A DNA stretch of 64,000 bases from an uncultured Clostridia bacterium (GTDB taxonomy: Bacteria > Bacillota > Clostridia > Oscillospirales > Acutalibacteraceae): assembly GCA_946555465.1 (NCBI GenBank), contig CAMNST010000006.1:62001-126000 (forward strand), in the 5' to 3' direction. Both the position numbers and the translations under genes were made by a program. Shown piece by piece: positions 1,374 through 42,284 of this stretch (position 1 is the first letter of the stretch; every line of letters begins with the position of its first letter). The notes beneath the pieces were generated by a model. That model made no database searches, was not told the DNA's origin, and saw only the letters and a program-made list of their open reading frames with translations.

Positions 1374-3461
1374 TCACACTTCTTCAATCAGGATGATTTC
1401 ATTATAATCAACACCGTGGATATGAAGCGGTATACCGACATTCATCAGATAAGCGCCGCTTTTTTCATAGGTATTATTTTTTATTGTAAGTTTATAGCGT
1501 TTATTTTCATCAAGACCGTCAAAGCAAACAGGAATTCTCTTTTTATAAAACCTTGTACCGTTTGCAAGCAGGAATGCAACACCCTTTGACTTATCAACAG
1601 TTACATACTGATTAAGCAGAACTTCGTCTTTTTCAATATCAAGTATTCTGTACAAATCACCAAACTGAACAACATCACGTATTTGTTTATAAAGCGCAAT
1701 ATTCTTTTTGCAGATTTCCAAATCACTGTCACTGTATTTTGTAAGATTACCACCCACACCAAGCGAGCCCTGCATTGCAACTGCAAAGCGGAAATCAAGT
1801 GAGCATGGCTTGTTGATACCCTCAATATCAGTTACCCATGCACGCATGGTTTTTGCAGGACGCAGGAGAGAATAACCTTTCTGAATGGTCATCCTGTCAA
1901 TACCGTCGGTATTATCACTGGTCCACGCCTGATCATAGTGGCTCAAAGCACCAAGGTCACATCTTCCTCCGCCCGAAGCACATGTTTCAATGGCAACTTC
2001 AGGATGTTTTTCTTTAAGTTTATCAACAATATTATAAACAGCCATTGTGTGAAGATAGGAATACATTTTTGGATTTTGCAGATTTTCTGCTCCTGTTTCC
2101 GAAAACGGTCTGTTCATATCCCACTTAATATATTTAATATTATGATTAGAGAGAAGTTCATCAAGCAAATTAAAAATATATTCCTGAACGTCTTTTCTTG
2201 TCATATTAAGAACAAGTTGATGACGCAGTGTGCATGCCTCACGGTTAGGATAATGATATGCCCAGTCGGGATGTTTTCTGAACAAATCGCTGTCAGGGTT
2301 AACCATCTCAGGTTCAACCCATATACCGAAATCCATACCGAGTTCGTTTACCCTTTCAATAAGTTCGTTAAGCCCGTTAGGAAACTTTTCATTATTAACA
2401 TACCAATCTCCCAGTCCGGCACGGTCATTTTTACGCTGGCCGAACCAACCGTCGTCCATAACAAAAAGTTCAACGCCCATTTCAGCAGCACGCTCGGCAA
2501 GAGCAGACTGATTATTTACGCTTACATCAAAACCTGTTGCCTCCCAAGAGTTATAAAGAACAGGAAGCGGTTTATCATTAAACTGTTTAGGCAGAATATG
2601 ATTTACGGCAAAACGATTCATCTGTCTTGTCATTTCACCGAATCCCTGAACGTATCCACAGTAAACGGGAGGGGTATCAAAAATTTCTCCGCCGTTAACG
2701 GTATGAGAAAAATCGAAATCGTTCATTCCCATAACAACTCTTGTAATGCCGTAAAGGTCTCTTGAACAACTTACTTTGAAATTTCCGCTGTATGCAAGAG
2801 AGGCAAAATAAACATCGCCCGTTTTTTCATCGGCATTCTGATATGCAATAAAATATGGAGAATTGTTATGATTTGACGAACCTTTGCGGCTTTCAAAAAC
2901 AGTGTAACCGCCCTCAAGAACATTGTTTGTTTCTATAAATTCTCCGCCCCATGCACCGTTTGTGTTTTTAAAAGTATACGCATTAACAGACGGCAGACTG
3001 AACTGGGCAGATGAAATTTTTTCAAAATCTATTCTGCCTGTTCCTGTATTTTTTATTGTTGTCCATCGTTTTATAATATCACTGTTCTCAAAAATCTGAT
3101 AGTTAAGGGTTATTTCAAGAGGATAAAATTTGTCTGAAAAAACCAGTGAAAGCATATCATCACTTTTTTTATATCCATCATATTTTAAATTGATTTCACG
3201 GCACTTATCCTCAAACTCGGCCTTTATGTCACATTCGCGGTACATTGTCTGACCGAAAGGCGTCAGTTCCTGTTTATACTCATCAAGTCTTGTGTGATTT
3301 GAATTTTCGTCACCTGTATTATCCGCACAGTAATCTGACACATCACACTTTTGACCCCAGTGAATATGATGGTTATATCCTGCCTCATCTATTCCCATAA
3401 CATAATGGGTATTTTTTGTTTCAAGAACAAAAATATTATTCTTACATATAATTTTACTCAT
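1374..3461 (-). CDS. Alpha-galactosidase, GH36 family
   Basis: ELFVMDDGWFGQRKNDRAGLGDW, IKYIKWDMNRPF, IETCASGGGRCD motifs. Start placed at MSKIICKN (3461) behind AGGAG. Confidence 0.93.
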   Translation of the reverse strand: MSKIICKNNIFVLETKNTHYVMGIDEAGYNHHIHWGQKCDVSDYCADNTGDENSNHTRLDEYKQELTPFGQTMYRECDIKAEFEDKCREINLKYDGYKKSDDMLSLVFSDKFYPLEITLNYQIFENSDIIKRWTTIKNTGTGRIDFEKISSAQFSLPSVNAYTFKNTNGAWGGEFIETNNVLEGGYTVFESRKGSSNHNNSPYFIAYQNADEKTGDVYFASLAYSGNFKVSCSRDLYGITRVVMGMNDFDFSHTVNGGEIFDTPPVYCGYVQGFGEMTRQMNRFAVNHILPKQFNDKPLPVLYNSWEATGFDVSVNNQSALAERAAEMGVELFVMDDGWFGQRKNDRAGLGDWYVNNEKFPNGLNELIERVNELGMDFGIWVEPEMVNPDSDLFRKHPDWAYHYPNREACTLRHQLVLNMTRKDVQEYIFNLLDELLSNHNIKYIKWDMNRPFSETGAENLQNPKMYSYLHTMAVYNIVDKLKEKHPEVAIETCASGGGRCDLGALSHYDQAWTSDNTDGIDRMTIQKGYSLLRPAKTMRAWVTDIEGINKPCSLDFRFAVAMQGSLGVGGNLTKYSDSDLEICKKNIALYKQIRDVVQFGDLYRILDIEKDEVLLNQYVTVDKSKGVAFLLANGTRFYKKRIPVCFDGLDENKRYKLTIKNNTYEKSGAYLMNVGIPLHIHGVDYNEIILIEEV

Positions 3462-3547
3462 AAATTCTCCTATAAATACCTCTAAGAAATGATTGCACGC
3501 AAATGTATAAACGCCTATGCTTCCATACAATAAAATTCATATTGCAT

Positions 3548-5302
3548 TTAGTCCGGACTTTTTTCTATTACAGCAATTTTTGAATTTGTTTTTCTGATTT
3601 CGTCATATACACGATCTGAAAATTTCTTTTCTCTTTTATAATTAAATAAACCGTTTTGCTCCTGCTCAATATCATATAATTGTGTGTAGCAAAAGCCGAA
3701 CATCTTTTCATTTTGCATAAGTGCATCAGTCAAACCACAGTAACGTCTTATAAATTCCTCTTCCGTTCTTACATCAACACCATAGCCCCAAGCCTTATGC
3801 TCTTTATCAGTTTCCCATTTTATACCGCCATATTCGCTTACAAACACCGGCTGACCGCTATATTTCTGCCTGCCCGGATTATCTTTCAGCACATGCTCAT
3901 ATAAAACGTTTTCTGTTACAAGCCTGTCAAAATTGCGTTTAAAGAAATTTACATCATAGTTATAATCATGAACATCGTATATATCGGTTTTAACATGGAA
4001 ATTTCCGCTTGTGTCAATGCAGGGGCGTGTAGGATCAAGTGCTTTCGTATAATCATAAACAGAAGAGAGCAAAGCGTCATACTGCTTTCTTCCGCGATAG
4101 TTCCAGGTTTCATTAAGCGGACACCAACCGATAATGGAAGGGTGGTTAAAGTCACGTTCAACTGCCTCTCCCCATTCGGAAAGAAAAATATCAACTGACT
4201 TTGGATTTGAATGATCAAACCCCCAACTTGCATATTCACCCCATACAATATAGCCGAGTTTATCGCACCAATACAGAAAACGGGGTTCAAATACTTTTTG
4301 GTGAAGCCTTGCTCCGTTAAAACCAAGACTCATAGAAAGTTCAATATCTCTGCGTAATTCTTCATCGTCTTTTGCGGTATAAATACCATCCTTATAAAAG
4401 CCCTGATCAAGAACAAGTCTTTGAAAAACACTTTTACCGTTAATCAAAAATTTATATCCGTCAAGCGCAACATTGCGCAGACCGAAATAAGAGAAAACCT
4501 CATCCTTGCCAAACTTTATTTTCAACTCATAAAGTCTGCCGTTTCCAACTTTCCAAAAGTGGGTTTCGGCAAGAGATATTTCGGCAAAAACATTAGAAAT
4601 ACAGTTTTTCTTTTCTGCGCTGCCGACCAATCTTCCGTCATAGAACACCTCACAGGAAAAATCATCCCTGCCTTTAAGAACAGCACTTATTGCAACACAG
4701 GCATTTTCACTGTCCGGATAAATTTTAAAATTTTCAACATAATTCTGAGGCGTATATTCAATCCAAACACTCTGCCATATTCCGGTTGTTCTTGTGTAAT
4801 CACAGTCGTGGCTTTCTCTTCTTTCACTCTGCTTGCCTCTCATAACAAAGGGAGATTTAACATTATCCTCACAAAGAATAAAAATTTCATTTTCTCCGTC
4901 AACAGCATAGTCTGTTATGTCAAATGAAAACGAGGTATAACCACCCTTATGCCTTCCTGCCGGCTTTGAATTAACAAGAACCGTTGTGAGATAATCCGCT
5001 GCACCTATATGAAGAAAAACTCTGCAGTCGTTTTTATGAATCACAACCTTTTTTCTGTACCAAACAAGATTAACGAAATCCGTGCATCCAATGGCAGAGA
5101 GAATACTTTCAATACAAAACGGAACATTAATTTTATACGCATAATTGTTCTCAGCATAAATCTTCAATGCTCTGCTTTCATTTTCAGAAAACTTAAATCC
5201 GATATTTGCTTTTTTATATCCAAAGTCCCATTCACCGTTGAGATTCACCCAGTTTTTTCGTTCAAACTGCGGATTATGATGCTCTTTATTATACATATTC
5301 AT
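3548..5302 (-). CDS. Glycoside hydrolase family 2 (beta-galactosidase/beta-glucuronidase-like)
   Basis: GH2 architecture: N-terminal sugar-binding fold, NGARLHQKVFEPRFLYWCDKLGYIVWGEYASWG, HPSIIGWCPLNETW (acid/base), PVFVSEYGG. Confidence 0.9.
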   Translation of the reverse strand: MNMYNKEHHNPQFERKNWVNLNGEWDFGYKKANIGFKFSENESRALKIYAENNYAYKINVPFCIESILSAIGCTDFVNLVWYRKKVVIHKNDCRVFLHIGAADYLTTVLVNSKPAGRHKGGYTSFSFDITDYAVDGENEIFILCEDNVKSPFVMRGKQSERRESHDCDYTRTTGIWQSVWIEYTPQNYVENFKIYPDSENACVAISAVLKGRDDFSCEVFYDGRLVGSAEKKNCISNVFAEISLAETHFWKVGNGRLYELKIKFGKDEVFSYFGLRNVALDGYKFLINGKSVFQRLVLDQGFYKDGIYTAKDDEELRRDIELSMSLGFNGARLHQKVFEPRFLYWCDKLGYIVWGEYASWGFDHSNPKSVDIFLSEWGEAVERDFNHPSIIGWCPLNETWNYRGRKQYDALLSSVYDYTKALDPTRPCIDTSGNFHVKTDIYDVHDYNYDVNFFKRNFDRLVTENVLYEHVLKDNPGRQKYSGQPVFVSEYGGIKWETDKEHKAWGYGVDVRTEEEFIRRYCGLTDALMQNEKMFGFCYTQLYDIEQEQNGLFNYKREKKFSDRVYDEIRKTNSKIAVIEKSPD

Positions 5303-5326
5303 ATAAACTACCTTGTCAAATAAAAT

Positions 5327-6694
5327 TTATTTTTCCAATTCAAGCACGGTATTATAGTCATCTATATCATAATTTCCTGCAGAATTTTTGAGAATATCAA
5401 ACAAATCTGCTTTTCTGCCGTCAACCGTTTTCAGATTTATTTTTTTGAATACAGGATTCAAACGTTTTATAAATTTCAGGAAGATATCACCTTTCGGCGT
5501 CCCTTCTCTGAAGGTTTGATTGCCTTCAAATACACCTCGCACCAGTTCAGCGGCATAATTCTTTAAAAGCATATTTTTTATTGATTTATCACATTTTATC
5601 CACAGCAGACGACAAAGTCCGCCGAGAGTTATATTGTTGATTATTTTACCGGCAAATTTAAATGCCGAACAAATAACCTTATTATCTCCTATACCGAATT
5701 TCTGCATCATTCTTTCGGGATTATACTGCATATCATCAAGCATATTAAGGATCATTGAATCAAACAAATCCGATAAATACTTTTTACAACTCCTGCCGTT
5801 TGTATCCCATTCAAAATCGGGCGTTTCAATGCTCTTTATTATTGCCTTGTTATCGGCAGTAATTGTAACATGACGGATAACTGCAGGGGCTGCAATAATC
5901 GACCCTGTGCAGACATCATAAAATTTATTGCCGCTTTCGGTTATCTTTTCATTGATGCTCTGATTATGCATATGACCTGTAAAAACAAGATGAACACCTT
6001 CATCGGCAAGCATTGTTGTAACAGCATCACTTTCACGCTGAACTGCCGACGCAATCAATGAAAAAATCGGCTGACCGGGCAGTAAAGGATAATGATTCAT
6101 GGCAAACATAATCTGATTATCGTCACGTGCCTTTTTCGTCTGCTCTTTTATCCAGTTGATATGTGCCTCATCAAATCTTCTTCCGCCGTCATCTGCACCG
6201 TCGTTATTGAGTGCAAGCAGTCTTACGCCGTCACACAGTTGAACTACATATGATAAATGCTGCCTGTCAACAGCAATGGCATCACTGAATCCAAAATCAT
6301 AGTACAAATCATACAGTTCTTCACGTTTTGTACTTTCAGGTGAAAGCCGACCGCTTTCATCAAAAGCAAAGCAACTGTCATCTTGATTTTTAAAATCATG
6401 GTCGGCAGTTATAACATAAACCTTTTTTCCTGCCGCTTTAAGTTCACCCAGCAGTTTGATAAATTCAAGGTGACTTTCCTTTTCTCCGTTAAAAGACAAA
6501 TCACCTGCAATAAGAACAATATCAGCCTCGTCTGCTTTTTTCAGCCAGTCAAAAACAGAGCGGTTTATTGCCTCGGTTTCAGCAAAGCATTTTTGCTCAA
6601 AACGCATAAATGCATCATATTCTTTGCCTCTTGCCCCAAGAGAATTTTTAAAATAATGGGTATCTGTAATAAGATAGAAATTCAAATTTTCCAT
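5327..6694 (-). CDS. Calcineurin-like metallophosphoesterase
   Basis: ITDTHY, VLIAGDLSFNGE, MNHYPLLP, VFTGHMHNQ. Confidence 0.86.
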   Translation of the reverse strand: MENLNFYLITDTHYFKNSLGARGKEYDAFMRFEQKCFAETEAINRSVFDWLKKADEADIVLIAGDLSFNGEKESHLEFIKLLGELKAAGKKVYVITADHDFKNQDDSCFAFDESGRLSPESTKREELYDLYYDFGFSDAIAVDRQHLSYVVQLCDGVRLLALNNDGADDGGRRFDEAHINWIKEQTKKARDDNQIMFAMNHYPLLPGQPIFSLIASAVQRESDAVTTMLADEGVHLVFTGHMHNQSINEKITESGNKFYDVCTGSIIAAPAVIRHVTITADNKAIIKSIETPDFEWDTNGRSCKKYLSDLFDSMILNMLDDMQYNPERMMQKFGIGDNKVICSAFKFAGKIINNITLGGLCRLLWIKCDKSIKNMLLKNYAAELVRGVFEGNQTFREGTPKGDIFLKFIKRLNPVFKKINLKTVDGRKADLFDILKNSAGNYDIDDYNTVLELEK

Positions 6695-6706
6695 AAGTAT
6701 TGCCTT

Positions 6707-7714
6707 TTAATGAATATTGTTATAGTAACTGATTTTTCCGCTGTCGTCAATCACGGCAGCAACACCGTTTTCGCTGCCGGTTATAAGTATTGCAGAGTTA
6801 GAAATGCGTGTTATTCTTCTGAGTGTTCTTTTATCGGTTGATTCATAATTATTTGTAATAACACACACATCCGGTGAAAGCGTTTTAAGCCATTTTGATG
6901 TGGTTGAACCGCTGTAACTGTGATGGCCCACTTTTAACAAATCAACTTTTCCGATAAGAGGAGCAAGATGTTCTTCATCACCGTTAAGATTATTTATATC
7001 GCCTGCAAGAAATATTCTTGCACCGTTTTTTTCAATTAAAACACCTAATGAATTATCGTTTTCGCCAACTTTTTTACAGTTATTATCTTTGGTATTAAAA
7101 ATGGTAACCGTAAAATTTCCCAATGAAAAAGGTTTTTCACTAATATCTGATATAATGGGAATATTCTTGTCTTCAAGAGCGTTTATCATCTGTTCATAAA
7201 CCTCTTTATTATCCCATTTTTCAACCTCATAATCATTAATCTGCGATTCATCATATTTTTTCAGGTACGCTCTGCCGATTTTAACCGACGGATCGGATAT
7301 CACAGTATCAAATCCGCCGATATGATCTGAATGGCTGTGCGTTCCCAAAATAAAATCAAGATTAACAACTCCGTTTTCATCTGCCGCATTTTCTTTAAGA
7401 TAATCAAGAACTTTATCTTCATATCCTTCATAAGCAAGTTCGGCAAATCCTCTTGGATTGTCGCTGTCTTCTGCGCAGTCAATCAAAGCAAACATACCTT
7501 CACTTTCAATCAGAATTGCATCTGAACTTCCTGTACTCAAAAAGTGAACTGCGTCCCTGCCTTTATTATAATCAGCAAATGAAGAAATCTCAAGTTTTTC
7601 TCTGTTATCTTTCATATTGCAGTGACTTTTTATAACAGCAGAAACTGCACCTGCACCTCCTGCAATTACAGCAATACAAACGGCTCCTATTACTGTCTTT
7701 AATTTAAAATTCAT
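6707..7714 (-). CDS. Exported/membrane-anchored MBL-fold hydrolase (ComEC C-terminal-domain-like)
   Basis: LGTHSHSDHIGGFD, FLAGDINN, LLKVGHHSYSGSTT; N-terminal signal/TM segment. Start set at MNFKLKTV (7714) behind GGAG. Confidence 0.86.
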   Translation of the reverse strand: MNFKLKTVIGAVCIAVIAGGAGAVSAVIKSHCNMKDNREKLEISSFADYNKGRDAVHFLSTGSSDAILIESEGMFALIDCAEDSDNPRGFAELAYEGYEDKVLDYLKENAADENGVVNLDFILGTHSHSDHIGGFDTVISDPSVKIGRAYLKKYDESQINDYEVEKWDNKEVYEQMINALEDKNIPIISDISEKPFSLGNFTVTIFNTKDNNCKKVGENDNSLGVLIEKNGARIFLAGDINNLNGDEEHLAPLIGKVDLLKVGHHSYSGSTTSKWLKTLSPDVCVITNNYESTDKRTLRRITRISNSAILITGSENGVAAVIDDSGKISYYNNIH

Positions 7715-32571: not shown

Positions 32572-34488
32572 ATGGCTGAGGTTAAGAAAGAGTATGAATT
32601 CCCGCTTTATCTTTTTCATAGCGGAAAGAATTATAAAGCATATGAATTCTTCGGCTGTCATAAACTGAAAGACCATCGTTTTGTTTTCAGAGTCTGGGCA
32701 CCTCACGCAGCAAATGTCTGCGTTGCAGGTGATTTCAACAACTGGAACGAAAGTGAAGGAATTATGACCCAGATTTCACCGGGTATATGGGAGGCTGAAA
32801 TCGACGGTGTAAATAATTATGACTGCTATAAATATGCAATTACAACAAAAAGCGGAAAAATAAATATGAAAGCAGACCCTTATGCTGTTCATTCTGAAAC
32901 ACGCCCGGGAACAGCATCAAAGGTTTATGTTGAAAAAAATTACAAATGGAAAGACAAAAAATGGCGTGAAAACTCCAAGAAAGGCAATATTCTTGAAAAA
33001 CCCGTAAATATTTATGAAATTCACTTCGGTTCATGGAAACAACATGAAAACGGCGATTTTCTTTCATACAGGCAGATGGCGGAAGAACTTGTGCCTTATG
33101 TAAAAGAAATGGGATATACCCATATTGAAATGATGCCTATTACTGAATATCCGTTTGACGGTTCGTGGGGATATCAGGTCACGGGTTACTTTTCACCTAC
33201 CTCACGTTACGGAACACCTGACGATTTAATGTATTTTATCGATTGCTGTCATAATGCAAATATAGGTGTTATTCTTGACTGGGTTCCTGCACATTTTCCG
33301 AAAGATGCCCACGGACTTTACGAATTTGACGGAGAATGCACATATGAATATTCAGATTTGAAAAAAGGTGAACATAAAGAATGGGGCACAAGGGTTTTTG
33401 ACTACGGCAAAAACGAGGTTAAATCCTTTCTTATTTCCTCTGCAATGTATTGGGTTGATAAATTCCATTTTGACGGACTTCGTGTTGACGCTGTTGCTTC
33501 AATGCTTTATCTTGATTACGGAAGAGAAGACGGGCAATGGACACCCAACAAAAACGGAGGAAGAGAAAATCTTGAGGCAGTTGAATTTTTCCGTGAACTC
33601 AACTGCACTATGTTCAAAGAACATCCCGAGGTTATGATGATTGCAGAGGAATCAACTGCATGGCCTATGATTACAATGCCGACTGATATAGGCGGATTGG
33701 GATTCAACTTCAAATGGAATATGGGCTGGATGAACGATATGCTTCGCTACACATCCATGGATCCACTGTTCAGAAAAGGAAACCACAACTGTATAACTTT
33801 CAGTTTCTTTTATGCTTTCAGTGAAAATTTCATTTTGCCGATAAGCCACGATGAAGTTGTTCACGGAAAAGCAAGTCTCATCGGAAAAATGCCCGGCGAC
33901 TACGATATGAAATTTGACGGAGTAAGATTGTTTTTCGCCTATATGTTTGCCCATCCCGGCAAAAAACTCCTGTTTATGGGAAGCGAATTCGGTCAGTTCA
34001 TTGAATGGAATTACAAACAGGGGCTTGATTGGCTGCTGCTTGACTATGAAAAACACAAAAAACTCCAGAATTTCACAAAAGAACTCAACAAATTTTATTT
34101 ATCAAACCCGGCACTCTGGGAAATTGATTACAGTTGGGAAGGTTTTCAGTGGATTTCCAGCGAAGATAATGCAAATTCTATTATTGCTTTCAGAAGAATC
34201 GACAAAAAAGGTAAAGAACTTATTGCTATATTTAACTTTACGCCGAACAGTTTTAACGATTATAAAATAGGTGTGCCGGAAGCAGGAACATATAAAGTTG
34301 TTCTTGATACATCACTTTCAAAATACGGAGGAACAAAACCCCGTTTATCAGGCACCTATAAATCAAAAAAAGAACCTATGCACGGTCTTGATAACAGCAT
34401 AGGAATAAAACTGAACGGACTGTCCGCAGTTTATCTTGAAAAAAATGATATTAAGGTTAAGGAGAGAAAAAATGGCACAAAAAACTAA
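32572..34488 (+). CDS. glgB: 1,4-alpha-glucan branching enzyme
   Basis: [76 protein letters not shown]. Confidence 0.96.
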
Positions 34489-35680
34489 TGTTGTAGCAAT
34501 GCTTCTTGCAGGGGGCCAGGGAAGCCGACTTGGCGTTCTTACAAAAAACATTGCCAAACCAGCCGTACCATACGGCGGAAATTACAGAATCATAGACTTT
34601 CCGCTTTCCAACTGTGTTAACAGCGGAATTTACACTGTCGGTGTTCTGACCCAGTATCAGCCGCTTGAACTTAATGACTATCTCGGAAACGGCCAGCCAT
34701 GGGATCTTGACAGACAGCACGGCGGTATTCACATTTTATCGCCATATGAGGCTATCGGCGGTGCAGAATGGTATAAAGGCACTGCCAATGCAATTTATCA
34801 GAACATAAACTTTATTGAAAAATATGATCCGGAATATGTTGTAATTCTTTCAGGCGACCATATATACAAAATGAATTATGCAAAAATGGTTGATTTCCAC
34901 AAAAAGAATGACGCAGCATGCACCATTGCCGTTCTTGAAGTTCCGTGGGAAGAGGCATCACGCTTTGGCATTCTTGCCACCAAAGATAATGACGAAATCT
35001 ATGAATTTGCAGAAAAACCGGCCCAGCCCAAGAGCAACAAAGCATCAATGGGTGTTTATGTTTTCAGTTGGGATAAACTTAAACAGTATCTTATTCAGGA
35101 TGAAAACACCGAAGGTTCTGCAAACGATTTCGGCAAAAACATAATACCGACAATGCTTAATGCCGGTGAAAGAATGTTTGCATTCCCGTTCCAGGGTTAC
35201 TGGAAAGATGTCGGCACAATCGACTCTCTCTGGGAGGCTAATCTTGATATCATCAATCCTAATGTTGATCTTGATCTCAGTGATACGAGTTGGAGAATTT
35301 ATTCAAGAAATCCGATGGCGCCTCCGCATTATATCGGCAAAAATGCCGTTGTTGAGAACTCTTCAATAAGTGAAGGCTGTGAAATTGAAGGTGACGTTGA
35401 TTACAGCGTAATCTCTTCAAATGTTGTTATCGAAGAAAACGCCGATGTTAAATACAGCGTTATTATGCCGGGTGCAACAATAAAAAAAGGTGCAAAGGTT
35501 TATTATTCAATCGTTGCCGAAAATGCCGTTATTGAAGAAGACGCTAAAATAGGCGAGATTCCGGAACAACTTGAAAACCCCGAAGAATGGGGCATTCCGG
35601 TTATAGGTGCAGGCGCAACAATTACAAAGGGCAAATATGTAGCGCCCGGAGTGATGGTTAAATCAGGAGAGGAGGTATAA
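34472..35680 (+). CDS. glgC: Glucose-1-phosphate adenylyltransferase
   Basis: [58 protein letters not shown]. Start at 34472; overlaps glgB by 17 nt. Confidence 0.96.
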
Positions 35681-35682
35681 TT

Positions 35683-36801
35683 ATGAACGGAAAAAGAGTT
35701 TTAGGCATCATTTTTGCCAATATTCACGAAGAGTCACTTGACTCACTTACTGCTACAAGAACTATGGGTTCGGTTCCATTCTGTTCAAGATACCGCTTAA
35801 TTGACTTCCCTCTTTCAAATATGGTGAACAGCGGAGTTGCAAAAATCGGTGTTGTAACAAACGCAAATTTCCAATCTCTTATGGATCACGTAGGCACAGG
35901 AAAGCCATGGGATTTGAGCAGAAAATCAGACGGTCTTTATCTTCTTCCTCCGTTTTCTGTAGGAAGTGCATCAATGTGGGGCAATAGAATTGATGCTATT
36001 TATGGAAACATGAGTTTTCTCCAGCAGTCAAACCAGACCTATGTCCTTATGTCAGACTGTAACAATGTGCTTTCCATCGATTATTCCGAATTGTTCAATG
36101 CACACGAAGAAAGCGGTGCAGATATAACTATTCTCGGTGTTAAAGGAAAAATGCCGAAAAACATCGGTTCTGTTCTCTGCTTTGACAAGGTTGATGAAGA
36201 CGGAAGAATTACAGAAATGAGCCTTGATAAAAAAACAGACGGCGATGTTTTCCATTCCTGCAACATAATGATTATGAAGAAATATCTTCTTGAAACACTT
36301 GTTACCACTGCTCATTCAAAAAATGAAATTTCATATCAGAGAAATATTATTATGGCAAATGTGGGCAAACTTAGAATTCACGCTTTTGATGCAACAGACA
36401 GTTTTGTGGGCACGGTTGACTCTATTCAGAGTTATTATGACATTTCAATGTCTGTTCTTGAAAAGGAAAACAGACAAAAACTTTTCTCTTATCCTATTTT
36501 AACCAAAGAACGTGATGATATGCCAACGATATACGGTCCTGACTCATCACTTAAAAATTCTCTTGTGGCAGACGGCTGCATTATCAAGGGTAAAGTTGAA
36601 AACTGCATTGTTTTTAAAGGTGTTAAGATTGGAAAAGACACAGTTGTTAAAGATTCTATCCTTATGCAGGATACTGTTATAGGCGACAACTCAAAGATAA
36701 GTTGCGTTATTGCAGATAAAAATGTCAGCATAAAAGACAGTGTTGAACTTTCCGGAGCAGATACATTCCCTATCTGCCTTACTAAGAATACAAGAGTTTA
36801 A
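35683..36801 (+). CDS. glgD: Glucose-1-phosphate adenylyltransferase-like regulatory subunit
   Basis: ADP-Glc pyrophosphorylase fold lacking the GGxGxRL loop (IIFANIHEESLDSLTATRTMGSVPFCSRYRLIDFPLSNMVNSG); follows glgC. Confidence 0.93.
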   Translation: MNGKRVLGIIFANIHEESLDSLTATRTMGSVPFCSRYRLIDFPLSNMVNSGVAKIGVVTNANFQSLMDHVGTGKPWDLSRKSDGLYLLPPFSVGSASMWGNRIDAIYGNMSFLQQSNQTYVLMSDCNNVLSIDYSELFNAHEESGADITILGVKGKMPKNIGSVLCFDKVDEDGRITEMSLDKKTDGDVFHSCNIMIMKKYLLETLVTTAHSKNEISYQRNIIMANVGKLRIHAFDATDSFVGTVDSIQSYYDISMSVLEKENRQKLFSYPILTKERDDMPTIYGPDSSLKNSLVADGCIIKGKVENCIVFKGVKIGKDTVVKDSILMQDTVIGDNSKISCVIADKNVSIKDSVELSGADTFPICLTKNTRV

Positions 36802-36812
36802 GGAGGAAAACA

Positions 36813-38231
36813 ATGAAAGTATTATATGTTGCCTCCGAGGCACTTCCCTTTATGGCATCAGGCGGACTTGGTGATGTTGCCGGTTCGCTTCCGGTTGCTC
36901 TGAGGAAAAGACTTATAGGATGCCGTGTGGTTATGCCGCTTTACGACAGCATCAAGCAGGAATATAAAGACAAGATGAAGTTTATAACATCCATTTCCGT
37001 TCCTGTTTCGTGGAGACGCCAGTATTGCGGTGTATTTGAAGCGAAAGCAAATGGAGTTATCTATTATTTCCTTGATAATCAGTATTATTTCAAGCGTGAC
37101 GGAATTTACGGTCACTACGATGATGCCGAAAGATTTGCATTTTTTGCAAGAGCGGTTCTTGAAATTATACCCGTAATTGACTGGAAACCCGACATCATTC
37201 ACTGCAACGACTGGCAAAGCGCTCTTACACCGCTTTATTACAGTTGTTATTATGCAAACAGAATGGGTTATGAAAACATCAAAACCGTTTTTACAATTCA
37301 TAACATTCAGTATCAGGGAAAATATGGTGACGAACTTTTAAACGATGTTCTCGGCATTGCTCCCGAACATAACAATCTGATTTTATATGACGGACTTGTA
37401 AACTTTATGAAAGCGGGCATTGAATGCGCCAATATGGTTACAACTGTTTCGCCAACATACGCAAAAGAAATTCTTGACCCTTGGTTCAGCCACGGCCTTG
37501 ACCCGATTCTCAATCAGCGCAGTTGGAAACTCTGCGGTATATTAAACGGTATTGATGTTGACGGTTATAATCCTGAAACCGACAAGGATATTTGGGCAAA
37601 TTACAACGCCGAAGATTTTTCTGCAAAAGCAAAAAATAAAGAAGAACTTCAAAAAATGATGGGTCTTAATGTTGATGCAAATACACCCGTTATCGGAATT
37701 GTAACAAGACTTGTCGGCCACAAAGGCGTTGACCTTATGAGAGAAGTTCTTGAAAAGAGTATCTGTGAAAGAAACATTCAGTATGTTATGCTCGGAAGCG
37801 GTGAATGGCAGTATGAAAACTATTTCCGCTACCTTCACGATAAATATCCTGACAAAGTCGGCATCACAATCGGATTTGTACCCGACCTTGCAAGAAAAAT
37901 TTATGCAGGTGCAGATATGTTCCTTATGCCGAGTAAATCTGAACCCTGCGGTCTTTCCCAGATGGTGGCACTTCGTTACGGAACAGTTCCCATTGTTCGC
38001 GAAACAGGCGGTCTTAAAGACTCAATCAGCGACAGCGGCGACGGCGAAGGCAACGGCTTTACATTCAAATCATATAATGCTTACGATATGCTTGGTGCAA
38101 TCTATCGCGCAGAAGATGCATACCGCAGCGGCAGTTGGGATATTCTTGTTAAAAGAGCGCTCGACTGTGATATGAGTTGGGGCAAAAGTGCAAACGAATA
38201 CATCAAAATGTACCGCGGTTTGCTTAAATAA
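36813..38231 (+). CDS. glgA: Glycogen synthase, ADP-glucose type
   Basis: MKVLYVASEALPFMASGGLGDVAGSLP, TIHNIQYQGKYG, MPSKSEPCGLSQMVALRYGTVPIVRETGGLKDSI. Confidence 0.97.
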   Translation: MKVLYVASEALPFMASGGLGDVAGSLPVALRKRLIGCRVVMPLYDSIKQEYKDKMKFITSISVPVSWRRQYCGVFEAKANGVIYYFLDNQYYFKRDGIYGHYDDAERFAFFARAVLEIIPVIDWKPDIIHCNDWQSALTPLYYSCYYANRMGYENIKTVFTIHNIQYQGKYGDELLNDVLGIAPEHNNLILYDGLVNFMKAGIECANMVTTVSPTYAKEILDPWFSHGLDPILNQRSWKLCGILNGIDVDGYNPETDKDIWANYNAEDFSAKAKNKEELQKMMGLNVDANTPVIGIVTRLVGHKGVDLMREVLEKSICERNIQYVMLGSGEWQYENYFRYLHDKYPDKVGITIGFVPDLARKIYAGADMFLMPSKSEPCGLSQMVALRYGTVPIVRETGGLKDSISDSGDGEGNGFTFKSYNAYDMLGAIYRAEDAYRSGSWDILVKRALDCDMSWGKSANEYIKMYRGLLK

Positions 38232-38288: not shown

Positions 38289-38831
38289 TTAATAATTTTC
38301 TGCCTTTATTTCAAAGTATGCTTTTGCATGCTTACATACCGGGCAAACGTTAGGCACTTCCTTGCCGATAATAATATGGCCGCAGTTGGAGCAGACCCAT
38401 ATCTTATCTTCATCACGGCTGAATACAAGACCGCCCTCAACATTCTCAAGCAATTTAAGAAATCTTTGTTCATGCTCTTTCTCTATCTTGGCAACCTCGT
38501 CAAAAAGAAAAGCAATATGGTCAAATCCCTCTTCCCTTGCCTCTTCGGCAAACTTGGCATACATATCAGTCCACTCGTAATTTTCACCGGCTGCCGCATC
38601 TTTAAGATTTACGCCTGTATCTTTCCACTCGCCGCCATTTAAAAGTTTAAACCAGATTTCAGCGTGCGCTCTTTCATTATCTGCAGTTTCCATAAACAAA
38701 TCTGCAATCTGATTAAAACCGTCCTTGCGTGCTTTTTCAGAATAGAAAGTATATTTATTTCGTGCCTGGCTCTCGCCTGCAAATGCAGCCATCAGGTTTG
38801 CCTGTGTTTTGGTTGATTGTAAATCTTTCAA
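38289..38831 (-). CDS. Rubrerythrin (C-terminal rubredoxin domain)
   Basis: [73 protein letters not shown]. Likely TTG start at 38831 behind AGGAG. Confidence 0.94.
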
Positions 38832-38925
38832 AAAAATCACTCCTATCTCTATTATATTTAACCATATAAGGAAAAATATACACAAACAGGAGTGATAACT
38901 TAACATATTAAATTATTCATTGCAG

Positions 38926-41394
38926 TTATAACATTTTTATTCTTGAAACAACTTCAATAAATGCGCACCAGACAGCCTGAAAAATAACAACATTCAGGGC
39001 ACCCAACTGACTGAGTCCGCCTATAAATCCAAGCAGCGCAACCACGCCTAAACCAATAGCACAGCCGAAAGAAATCAGAACACTTAAAAGCCTTCTCGTA
39101 TCTTCAATGCTTTCAGCGGCCTCCATTGCACTTACAAAACCGAGAGCCGAGCCGTTATGAACCACGTATGCAGGCGATTTTTCAACACACATATCCGAAT
39201 ATTTTTCAAATACCCTGCCGTTTGAAGAATTCATAACCCTTACATAACCCTCAGGCAATGAAAACAATTCTGCAATGCTTTCATCATTGATAAACGGATC
39301 GGAACTTTTTACTAAAATTGTCATTCCGCTTTTTTCAAGTTTTCTCAGCGCTCTTTTAAGTTTAGGGTCTGCATTATACGAAACAACAAACATTGCCATA
39401 ACCGTTCCCGTAACGGCAAGATAAAGTATTTTTCTTCCCTTTCGGGTATACTTTTTCTCAAAATCCTCTTTCGGCACCCGTACACCGTGATGAATAAGAA
39501 GATCTCTTGTTCCTACAAGAATTTTTTTACGGTATATCCACGCTGAAGTTCCCAGCCTGTCCTCATAAATAACACCGTCAACATCGGGCAGAATGGTCTG
39601 CTTGCCGATAATTACATCATCAAATACATAGGAAAGCGGGCTTTTTGTTTTCATAATCACTGCGGCAGTTTTTAAAATAACATCATCTGCCTTTGCGCCG
39701 TTAAAGGTTTTTATGCCGTGAATTTCACAACTGTTCGGGCCGAAAAGATCCTGCGCTTCAATAACGATTGCGTTGGCATCATCAACCATCTGCGCACCTT
39801 TAAAACCGTTAATCATGGCACCGCAGTCTTTGAGTTTTTGCGAAATGCCGAGAAGCGTGCTGTTGGTGCAGAAAAGAGATATGCACGGCAGAGAAATACT
39901 CAAAGCGCAGACACCAATGTTAAAACCGATATGCCAGTCTTTGTTGATAGCAGAAAACACAACAAAAAGTATAAGGCTCAGCACCATCATAACACTGCCC
40001 GTAACAGCAGCAATTTTATCAGCAGGTTCGTCACTGCTGCTTATATCAAGAAACTTTGTTGTAAAATCTGTTTTAATGCTTGTTTTCAGATTAGCCTCGC
40101 CCGTCAGAACACCTCTGCTGATAATCGTTGCATCCACTGTATTTGCGATTGTTTCAACAGTATGTGTTTCCTCCTGCGCCACAAGAAATTCAAAATTCTT
40201 TATAATTCGGGTCAGCATAATTCTTCTGCCGAGGCCGCCCATAAATATTGCAAACGTTGCTGCAAGCGGATATGCATTTCCGCCGCTGATTGCAAAATCG
40301 CTGTCAAAAATCATCAGAACAGTATGTACAAGAACAATGATACTGACTGCAGAAATCGGAAAATCACTGTTAATCTTATATTTAAAGTTAAAACCGTGAA
40401 GTATCGTTTTTATGTTCACAATCATAACAACAGCATAAATAATGCTTAAAACAGAAAAATAAACCGTGTCTGACATAAGAAATGTAGGCAGATAAGCACT
40501 GTTTTTAAATGCGGTAATAAAGCCGATAACAATACCCAGTGCAAGCGTAACCGACATTTTAAAACTTACACTTGATTTTGCAGAAAAAAGTTTTTCAAGG
40601 AAAGCGGTTTTGTCATCGTCATTTTCATATTCATCTCTTACAGCACTGCCCTTTGAAGTTTCATTTTCAATTTCGTCAGGGCTGAAAAGACGAAACTTAT
40701 TTATCTTGTCTTTTCTTCTTTCCCTTAACTGCTTTTCGGCTAATTCTTCATCAATCTTTGATATTTCTTCGGTGCTGTCTTCAAAACCTTCGAGAACAAT
40801 CTGCTCGCCTTCATCACTCTCATAAATATCTGTTTCCGGTTTTGACATAAAATTTGAACCGCCGAGAGAAATTCTTGTTTTCTCAAGTTCGTCAACTGCA
40901 ACAATCGTTGGCACTTCCTGCAAATCAGAAGTTTTGTCAAACCTTGATTTGCTTTTGATTGTTGCCGGCTTTTCAACCATTTCAGGCGGATTTTTGGAAT
41001 AAACAGGCTCTGACGAACGGCTCTGAAAAAAACTGGTTTTCTTTTTGAATTCCTTAACATCTCCAACAACGCCTGTTTTCTCGCTCACTTCAACGTGCCT
41101 TGTTTTCTGGTCAACAATCCTTGTTTTTTCATCGGCACCGCTTTGGCTTTTTTCGCCGATTTCTTTGCTCACAACTGCAGTTTTTTCAATATTTTCTTTT
41201 TTTCTGTATTCGTGTGTATTTGATTTAATCTGTATATTTTTAACGTCCGGCTTGGGAACTTCGATATTTCTCTGTGTTATTTCTTTTGCTGTTGAATCTA
41301 TATCCTCAAGCGCAGACTGAGCCGTTTTAACGGTTTTGGTTCTTATTTCTTCTGCTCTTCTTATAATTTCATCTATTGATAAATTCTCGCTCAT
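38926..41394 (-). CDS. P-type ATPase-like membrane protein, apparently catalytically degenerate, with long polar N-terminal extension
   Basis: A-domain-like GVLTGEANLK; SLPCISLFCTNSTLLGISQKLKDCGAMINGFKGAQMVDDANAIVIEAQDLF aligns by eye with CPCALGLATP...GILIKGGEALE...VVFDKTGTL; N-domain-like ILVGTRDLLIHHGVRVP. No DKTGT, TGDN or GDGxNDAP. Confidence 0.75.
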   Translation of the reverse strand: MSENLSIDEIIRRAEEIRTKTVKTAQSALEDIDSTAKEITQRNIEVPKPDVKNIQIKSNTHEYRKKENIEKTAVVSKEIGEKSQSGADEKTRIVDQKTRHVEVSEKTGVVGDVKEFKKKTSFFQSRSSEPVYSKNPPEMVEKPATIKSKSRFDKTSDLQEVPTIVAVDELEKTRISLGGSNFMSKPETDIYESDEGEQIVLEGFEDSTEEISKIDEELAEKQLRERRKDKINKFRLFSPDEIENETSKGSAVRDEYENDDDKTAFLEKLFSAKSSVSFKMSVTLALGIVIGFITAFKNSAYLPTFLMSDTVYFSVLSIIYAVVMIVNIKTILHGFNFKYKINSDFPISAVSIIVLVHTVLMIFDSDFAISGGNAYPLAATFAIFMGGLGRRIMLTRIIKNFEFLVAQEETHTVETIANTVDATIISRGVLTGEANLKTSIKTDFTTKFLDISSSDEPADKIAAVTGSVMMVLSLILFVVFSAINKDWHIGFNIGVCALSISLPCISLFCTNSTLLGISQKLKDCGAMINGFKGAQMVDDANAIVIEAQDLFGPNSCEIHGIKTFNGAKADDVILKTAAVIMKTKSPLSYVFDDVIIGKQTILPDVDGVIYEDRLGTSAWIYRKKILVGTRDLLIHHGVRVPKEDFEKKYTRKGRKILYLAVTGTVMAMFVVSYNADPKLKRALRKLEKSGMTILVKSSDPFINDESIAELFSLPEGYVRVMNSSNGRVFEKYSDMCVEKSPAYVVHNGSALGFVSAMEAAESIEDTRRLLSVLISFGCAIGLGVVALLGFIGGLSQLGALNVVIFQAVWCAFIEVVSRIKML

Positions 41395-41413: not shown

Positions 41414-42172
41414 TCAAAGTCCTAATCTCTGTTTGGCAACTTCATACATAATAATTCCCGCGGCAACCGAGGCATTAAGCGAATTGACTTTGCCGCACAT
41501 CGGAAGACTCACCGTAACATCGCATTTTTCTTTAACAAGTCTGCCGACGCCTTTGCCCTCATTGCCTATAACAATGGCACAGCCTCCCGAAAAATCGGTT
41601 TTGCACCAGGGCTGTCCATCCATATCGGCACAGTATACCCAGATGTTTTTCTTTTTCAGTTCTTCAATCGTTGCCGCAATGTTGTTTACTCTTGCAACTT
41701 TCATATATTCAAGCGCTCCGCACGAGGTTTTTGCAACAATAAAATTGAGCCCCACATTTCGCCTCTTCGGAATAATGATTCCGTGAACGCCGCATGCCTC
41801 CGCACTTCGGATAATTGCGCCGAGATTATGACTGTCTTCAATCTCATCACAAATAATCAGAAACGGGTGCTCACCCTTGCTTTCGGCGTATGCAAGAATT
41901 TCATCCAGACTTGAATAACTGTGGGCAGGCACATTTGCGGCAACGCCCTGATGATTGGCATTTGCGCACATAAAATCAAGTTTTTTTCTGTCTACATTTT
42001 TTATAACAATGCCGTTTTCGCGGCACATAGAAATAATTCGGTTTATAGACCCCTCTCTTTCACCTTTGGCGATAAGAACATTTTCAATTTCTCTTCCGCT
42101 TTTTAAAAGTTCCATAACCGCATTTCTGCCGATAACCAGATTGTCATTTACAATATTATCTTCTCTTGCCAT
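41414..42172 (-). CDS. rlmB: TrmH/SpoU family 23S rRNA (guanosine-2'-O-)-methyltransferase
   Basis: VIGRNAVMELLKSGREIENVLIAKGE, DEIEDSHNLGAIIRSAEACGVHGIIIPKRR, VIGNEGKGVGRLVKEKCD, LNASVAAGIIMYE. Start at MAREDN (42172) behind GGAGA. Confidence 0.94.
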   Translation of the reverse strand: MAREDNIVNDNLVIGRNAVMELLKSGREIENVLIAKGEREGSINRIISMCRENGIVIKNVDRKKLDFMCANANHQGVAANVPAHSYSSLDEILAYAESKGEHPFLIICDEIEDSHNLGAIIRSAEACGVHGIIIPKRRNVGLNFIVAKTSCGALEYMKVARVNNIAATIEELKKKNIWVYCADMDGQPWCKTDFSGGCAIVIGNEGKGVGRLVKEKCDVTVSLPMCGKVNSLNASVAAGIIMYEVAKQRLGL

Positions 42173-42284
42173 ATTTTGTATCTCCGCATAAATATTCATA
42201 TTAATTATAACATTATATCGCCCATTAATCAACGGCAAATATTGTAAACACCTGCTGCTCCGTTTTGCAAAACATTGTATTCTG

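Follow-up and report, generated by a model that had tools for sequence, protein, structure and literature searches.

Introduction

Pseudoenzymes are known in many enzyme families, and the phosphoenzyme cycle of the P-type ATPases depends on a catalytic aspartate, a hinge, an actuator domain and a set of ATP contacts. A 2023 review described the P-type superfamily as having one catalytic machinery in common (PMC10654040). The few degenerate cases that turned up in the literature searched come from eukaryotes, and they are either disputed or fused to other domains. The human protein TMEM94 (ERMA), which carries DKQGIL and GSSANL, had no ATPase activity in one study (PMC12134183), while magnesium transport was claimed for it in another (PMC13322241); the ATPase half of Plasmodium GCbeta is a degenerate P4-type module, and a regulatory role has been discussed for its relatives (PMC6592433). 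Here we describe a pseudo-P1B-ATPase encoded by an uninterrupted open reading frame (38926-41394, minus strand) of a 64,000-nucleotide stretch of contig CAMNST010000006.1 from an uncultured bacterium of the order Oscillospirales (family Acutalibacteraceae), the whole of which is referred to below as the window. No bacterial P-type pseudo-ATPase was found in the open-access literature, where the closest parallels found are the two eukaryotic proteins, and the present family departs from the picture given in PMC10654040 in that the shared catalytic machinery has been lost.

The 822-residue protein resembles TMEM94 in having a P-type fold without TGES and GDGxND and with an altered phosphorylation loop, the function of TMEM94 being disputed, but TMEM94 is eukaryotic, has ten helices and a complete actuator-like domain, keeps the Asp-Lys of its loop (DKQGIL) and is nearest to SPCA pumps. 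The parallel is offered by analogy, the sequence and fold matches of the pseudo-ATPase pointing to P1B pumps. Plasmodium GCbeta differs in being P4-related, fused to guanylate cyclase and apicomplexan (PMC6592433), while P6 ATPases and isolated families such as CtpH/CtpI are likewise poorly characterised prokaryotic branches of the superfamily (PMC10654040). A near-universal, mostly single-copy and apparently vertically inherited bacterial family offers a clean natural experiment on what the P-type fold does without phosphorylation; the host order includes common gut commensals, and the fixed pairing of the gene with rlmB, documented below, gives a directly testable prediction.

Descent from P1B copper pumps

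A preliminary description, made by reading the sequence of the window, had proposed a P1B-like transport ATPase from which the phosphorylation machinery is missing, and homology searches bear out the relationship. As a single sequence the protein matched only Legionella CopA (3rfu) among PDB entries (phmmer, E 8e-8) and gave a weak match to NCBIfam CopA over residues 458-709 (1.8e-9), with 0 matches in a Pfam search. A profile of 42 diverse homologues reached 3rfu at 9e-32 and also picked up about 60 chains of P-type ATPases; searched one by one, 41 of these 42 homologues matched NCBIfam CopA. In view of these two results we regard common descent with P1B pumps as secure. Seven close relatives (63-70% identity) are all intact and have the invariant segment NAIVIEAQDLFG in common.

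Structure prediction agrees with this assignment. An AlphaFold model of the core, built from eight sequences, contains eight helices predicted with good confidence and placed as in P1B pumps, and Foldseek returned CopA structures as the best matches over the full length of the model (4bbj, E 3e-6, probability 1.00), a result that can be taken as supporting evidence only since the model is of low confidence. An unrelated predicted fold, which had been named beforehand as grounds for abandoning the proposal, was not obtained; the order of eight helices and of A-, P- and N-domains that defines P1B membership was recovered by the profile, the eight-helix model and Foldseek. The protein thus shares with CopA (3rfu and 4bbj, Legionella) its helix count, N-/P-domain order and segment lengths, along with the best fold match, and differs from it in lacking DKTGT, TGES, GDGxND, HP and CPC, in a halved actuator domain and in a long N-terminal tail. 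In a midpoint-rooted tree the active pumps formed one clade and the root fell among the pseudo-ATPases, so that only the unrooted split is usable.

Loss of the catalytic machinery

Fifty homologues were aligned with 15 active pumps, drawn from the same genomes or from related ones, and motifs were counted in 100 homologues. Several segments have the same length in homologues as in active pumps, namely M3-M4 (83 vs 83 residues), the N-domain (122 vs 122) and the part up to TGD (31 vs 31), whereas two have been shortened: the actuator loop between M2 and M3 measures 54-78 residues (median 67) as against 132, and the distance from TGD (D699) to M5 is 71 as against 102, a 31-residue deletion that takes out the GDGxNDAP hinge. 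Neither DKTGT nor GDGxND occurs in any of the 100 homologues, while the host's own three P-type ATPases each carry both. The earlier readings of EAQDL in place of DKTGT, of LPC in place of CPC and of a missing GDGxND were confirmed on the sequence, and no orthologue with an intact DKTGT, the finding set in advance as fatal to the proposal, appeared among the 100. Universality of the loss in orthologues, a point marked for testing, stood for the machinery as a whole but not for the aspartate itself: at the nucleophile position the window's clade has Glu and 45/60 family members have Asp (without KTGT), while across the order the residue is mixed or unconserved.

The remaining catalytic elements have fared similarly. 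The TGES columns are gapped, lying inside the actuator deletion, and TGE[SA] is found anywhere in just 9/100 homologues; the LTGEAN that had been read as an A-domain motif is consequently a chance resemblance and not a TGES homologue. Of the former CPC site the proline is kept in 83/100 and the cysteine is not conserved, the canonical metal-site residues of M4, M5 and M6 are lost, and no metal-binding domain was recognised in the protein. The Glu and His that contact ATP in the N-domain (E, HP) are present in 0/50 homologues, and position 673, an invariant Asp in active pumps, is Tyr in 97/100. With Asp/KTGT, hinge, actuator and ATP contacts gone, pumping by the known mechanism appears very unlikely, and a conserved, non-pumping protein, as first proposed, is strongly supported. 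The protein descends from P1B pumps, yet it is not to be classed with the P1B ATPases.

Conserved residues, selection and distribution

Other residues have been retained. In the N-domain the second glycine of GxG and the glycine of GN persist; G615 is kept in 99/100 homologues and G628 in 100/100, the latter making the earlier identification of ILVGTRDLL as N-domain-like a genuine match. The claim that TGDN is absent was right for the literal motif, in which the Gly and Asn positions have changed, but its Asp survives as D699 in 98/100 homologues within a TxDxN[IV]T-like loop. A further set of residues is newly conserved in the family, comprising D549 (acidic in 92/100), F551, F591, Y673, N701 (replaced by F in the window's own clade) and W809 (86/100). 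The ratio of nonsynonymous to synonymous substitution rates (dN/dS) of the core is about 0.03 in the sole unsaturated pair and about 0.07-0.15 (<0.16) in the others, in which dS is saturated; selection on the core is purifying. A P-type fold, loss of the catalytic motifs and conservation of the protein were all found, as expected of a P-type pseudo-ATPase. The many lost catalytic residues might suggest a pseudogene in decay or a resemblance due to chance, but either reading is refuted by the intact reading frames of hundreds of genomes, a dN/dS well under 1, the newly conserved residues and the P1B profile match.

Homologues occur in 232/250 genomes and 127/135 genera of the host's family, mostly as one copy per genome. 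Each of the 26 families of the order that were sampled has members with a homologue, the profile matching 148/149 genomes, a few matches being partial or pump-like. In the class and phylum samples beyond the order, of about 280 and about 148 genomes, all of the matches listed are confined to the pump-like segment at about 197-479 of the profile, and the 13 best class matches, when read, proved to be active pumps with DKTGT and GDGxND. The gene has apparently been inherited vertically. Eighteen genomes of the family are without it: nine, mostly reduced, keep RlmB, and nine also have no RlmB above the cut-off, the latter cases possibly reflecting assembly gaps.

Some individual records may be mentioned here. 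In one genome (G271) the homologue at 4125-6557 of locus L118 is broken by an in-frame TGA between two good halves, through sequencing error, decay or recoding. A faecal record labelled 'Bacteriophage sp.' (MT835633.1, L139) carries hisF-rlmB-pseudo-ATPase and looks bacterial, and six other such records match the family. A Subdoligranulum variabile record labelled as a plasmid (OY725837.1, L140) holds the rlmB-pseudo-ATPase pair; plasmid matches are mostly ordinary pumps.

Genomic association with rlmB

The gene next upstream, in the same orientation, matches TIGR00186 with 258 bits (cut-off 160) and is thereby identified as rlmB; rlmB lies directly upstream at 115 of the 116 loci with upstream sequence (59/59 in the family, 38/39 in the order, where one further locus is at a contig end, and 18/18 additional loci). 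The next most frequent neighbour cluster is present at 11/59 family loci. In the window a rubrerythrin gene (38289-38906, same strand) lies downstream, but it is present at only 9/59 loci, so that it is not a fixed partner. At the sole exception (L099, genome G250, 3438-7181) the gene follows obgE, behind rplU, and at another locus (L252) the order is obg-rlmB-pseudo-ATPase.

The N-terminal tail

The tail ahead of the core is charged and probably disordered; it ranges from about 86 to 1096 residues across the family, varies widely in sequence and has a higher dN than the core. An LSIDEII motif or its WSxEEIDxLL variant stands near the N-terminus in 53/100 homologues. In the tails of 10 members of the window's clade, which are related sequences, [DEQ]KTxx[VI] was seen 30 times against 0.7 expected from shuffling, an enrichment that is strong in this clade, weak in the family and absent in the order. 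These repeats may resemble the phosphothreonine sites that FHA domains read.

The N-terminal motif, written as [FYL]S[VLI][DE][DE]I[LI] or as [FY][SDN][VLI][DE][DE]IL[AS]E, also begins four other proteins, whose types were assigned by eye. One is an LCP of the host genome (L158, G000:C8:91384); the others, from relatives, are a second LCP, a sortase B and an ABC-2 export permease. In each of these envelope-protein loci (L158, L169, L173 and L162) a charged linker follows the motif. The motif is possibly a shared docking site of envelope proteins, and most LCPs checked are without it.

Interpretation and alternatives

We propose, with a probability of about 0.6, that this is a P-type pseudo-ATPase of bacteria that acts in the membrane as a scaffold or receptor. 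In an ancestor of the order, a copper-type (P1B) pump would have lost its GDGxND hinge and half its actuator domain by deletion. Its metal sites, its ATP contacts and its loop for phosphorylation would have decayed, while eight membrane helices, the full-length N-domain and most of the P-domain were kept. The new residue set would have become fixed, with D699 retained, and a long disordered cytoplasmic tail acquired; tail and rebuilt headpiece would bind cytoplasmic partners, possibly including RlmB, and hold them constitutively at the membrane. Such a role is in keeping with the conserved membrane body, with a headpiece that is rebuilt yet conserved, and with the short motifs repeated in the tail. 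Our confidence is strong in the absence of a phosphoenzyme cycle, moderate in a scaffold or receptor role and weak in the identity of the partners. The observation behind the preliminary description is confirmed, and its interpretation, under which the protein may act as a regulator, sensor or scaffold, is partly supported overall.

Several results weigh against a scaffold or receptor. The headpiece is poorly predicted within the core model (mean predicted local distance difference test score, pLDDT, 54), and its modelling alone failed (mean pLDDT 36). A test for co-loss of the gene with LCP envelope proteins was negative, the tail could be tied to no named partner, and no experiment on any family member was found in the literature. 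Genes may also stay adjacent in an operon by inheritance even if their functions are not coupled, and RlmB does not need the pseudo-ATPase, because nine family genomes keep the one without the other.

Those nine genomes, mostly reduced, tell also against a narrower form of the proposal, a scaffold specific to RlmB or to late 50S assembly at the membrane, and no RNA- or ribosome-binding domain was recognised by Pfam in the protein. The near-invariant rlmB adjacency favours this form, as do the exceptional locus, where the neighbour is a 50S-assembly GTPase gene (obgE) after rplU, and the relative in which obg precedes the pair; on balance it seems unlikely. Also unlikely is a bolder extension, a membrane receptor formed by the dead headpiece of the metal pump together with a disordered tail that can be phosphorylated; it would connect signalling from the envelope or from kinases with RlmB and the late stages of ribosome assembly.

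As an alternative to a scaffold or receptor, the eight-helix bundle might move a substrate without ATP, with the inert headpiece as a gate; the protein would then be a channel, a passive transporter or a lipid scramblase. All eight helices are kept in the model, as is the M4 proline in most homologues, and a lipid lies buried among the helices of TMEM94, a eukaryotic protein of comparable kind (PMC12134183). In the membrane, however, no polar or metal-binding residues stand out as conserved, the M4, M5 and M6 site residues having gone, and we consider such transport unlikely. A regulatory partner of canonical P1B pumps in the same cell, for instance in a heterodimer with CopA, would accord with descent from CopA-like pumps and with the three canonical P-type ATPases of the host, but there is no genomic link to metal genes, rlmB being the sole constant neighbour, and this is very unlikely. 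Highly improbable, finally, is an ATPase that still works, by an unusual cycle in which the nucleophile is D546, where present, or D549. The frequency of Asp at 546 in the family and the near-invariance of D699 could be cited in its favour, and an Asp in the noncanonical DKQGIL loop has been claimed to be needed in TMEM94/ERMA (PMC13322241), a claim that is disputed (PMC12134183); the order as a whole nevertheless does not conserve the nucleophile Asp, which the window's clade replaces by Glu. Also absent are the Lys of KTGT, TGE, the GDGxND hinge, the E/H contacts for ATP and the Asp at 673.

Features of the locus

Table 1. Coordinates in the window of the pseudo-P1B-ATPase gene, its parts and rlmB.
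Feature	Position	Strand	Remarks
Pseudo-P1B-ATPase gene	38926..41394	-	822 residues; homology to CopA; conserved order-wide
N-terminal tail, residues 1-257, charged, probably disordered	40624..41394	-	22% DE, 18% KR
N-terminal short motif LSIDEII, residues 5-11	41362..41382	-	
Repeated [DEQ]KTxx[VI] motifs, residues 70-109 (EKTAVV, EKTRIV, QKTRHV, EKTGVV)	41068..41187	-	
Four helices corresponding to MA, MB, M1 and M2 of P1B pumps, residues 259-406	40177..40620	-	AlphaFold 2 model, pLDDT mostly >70
Actuator-domain remnant, residues 407-455	40030..40176	-	About half length, TGES segment deleted (alignment)
Helices M3 and M4, residues 456-523	39826..40029	-	AlphaFold 2 model; length same as in active pumps
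LPC, former CPC metal site, residues 502-504	39883..39891	-	Alignment
Former DKTGT strand, residues 541-552, NAIVIEAQDLFG minus its first residue	39739..39774	-	KTGT lost in all 100 homologues, D549 newly conserved
N-domain, full length, residues 553-667	39394..39738	-	G615 and G628 kept; Glu/His ATP contacts lost
P-domain, second half, residues 668-749	39148..39393	-	Y673 in place of invariant Asp; D699 kept
Junction of the 31-residue deletion (approximate), residues 735/736	39189..39190	-	GDGxNDAP removed
Helices M5 and M6, residues 750-822	38929..39147	-	AlphaFold 2 model; metal-site residues lost, W809 newly conserved
rlmB (23S rRNA Gm2251 methyltransferase)	41414..42238	-	Directly upstream, gap 19 bp

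Elsewhere in the window, positions 32572-38231 hold a glycogen-type run that, on reading of the translations, consists of a branching enzyme, two ADP-glucose pyrophosphorylase-like genes and a glycogen synthase.
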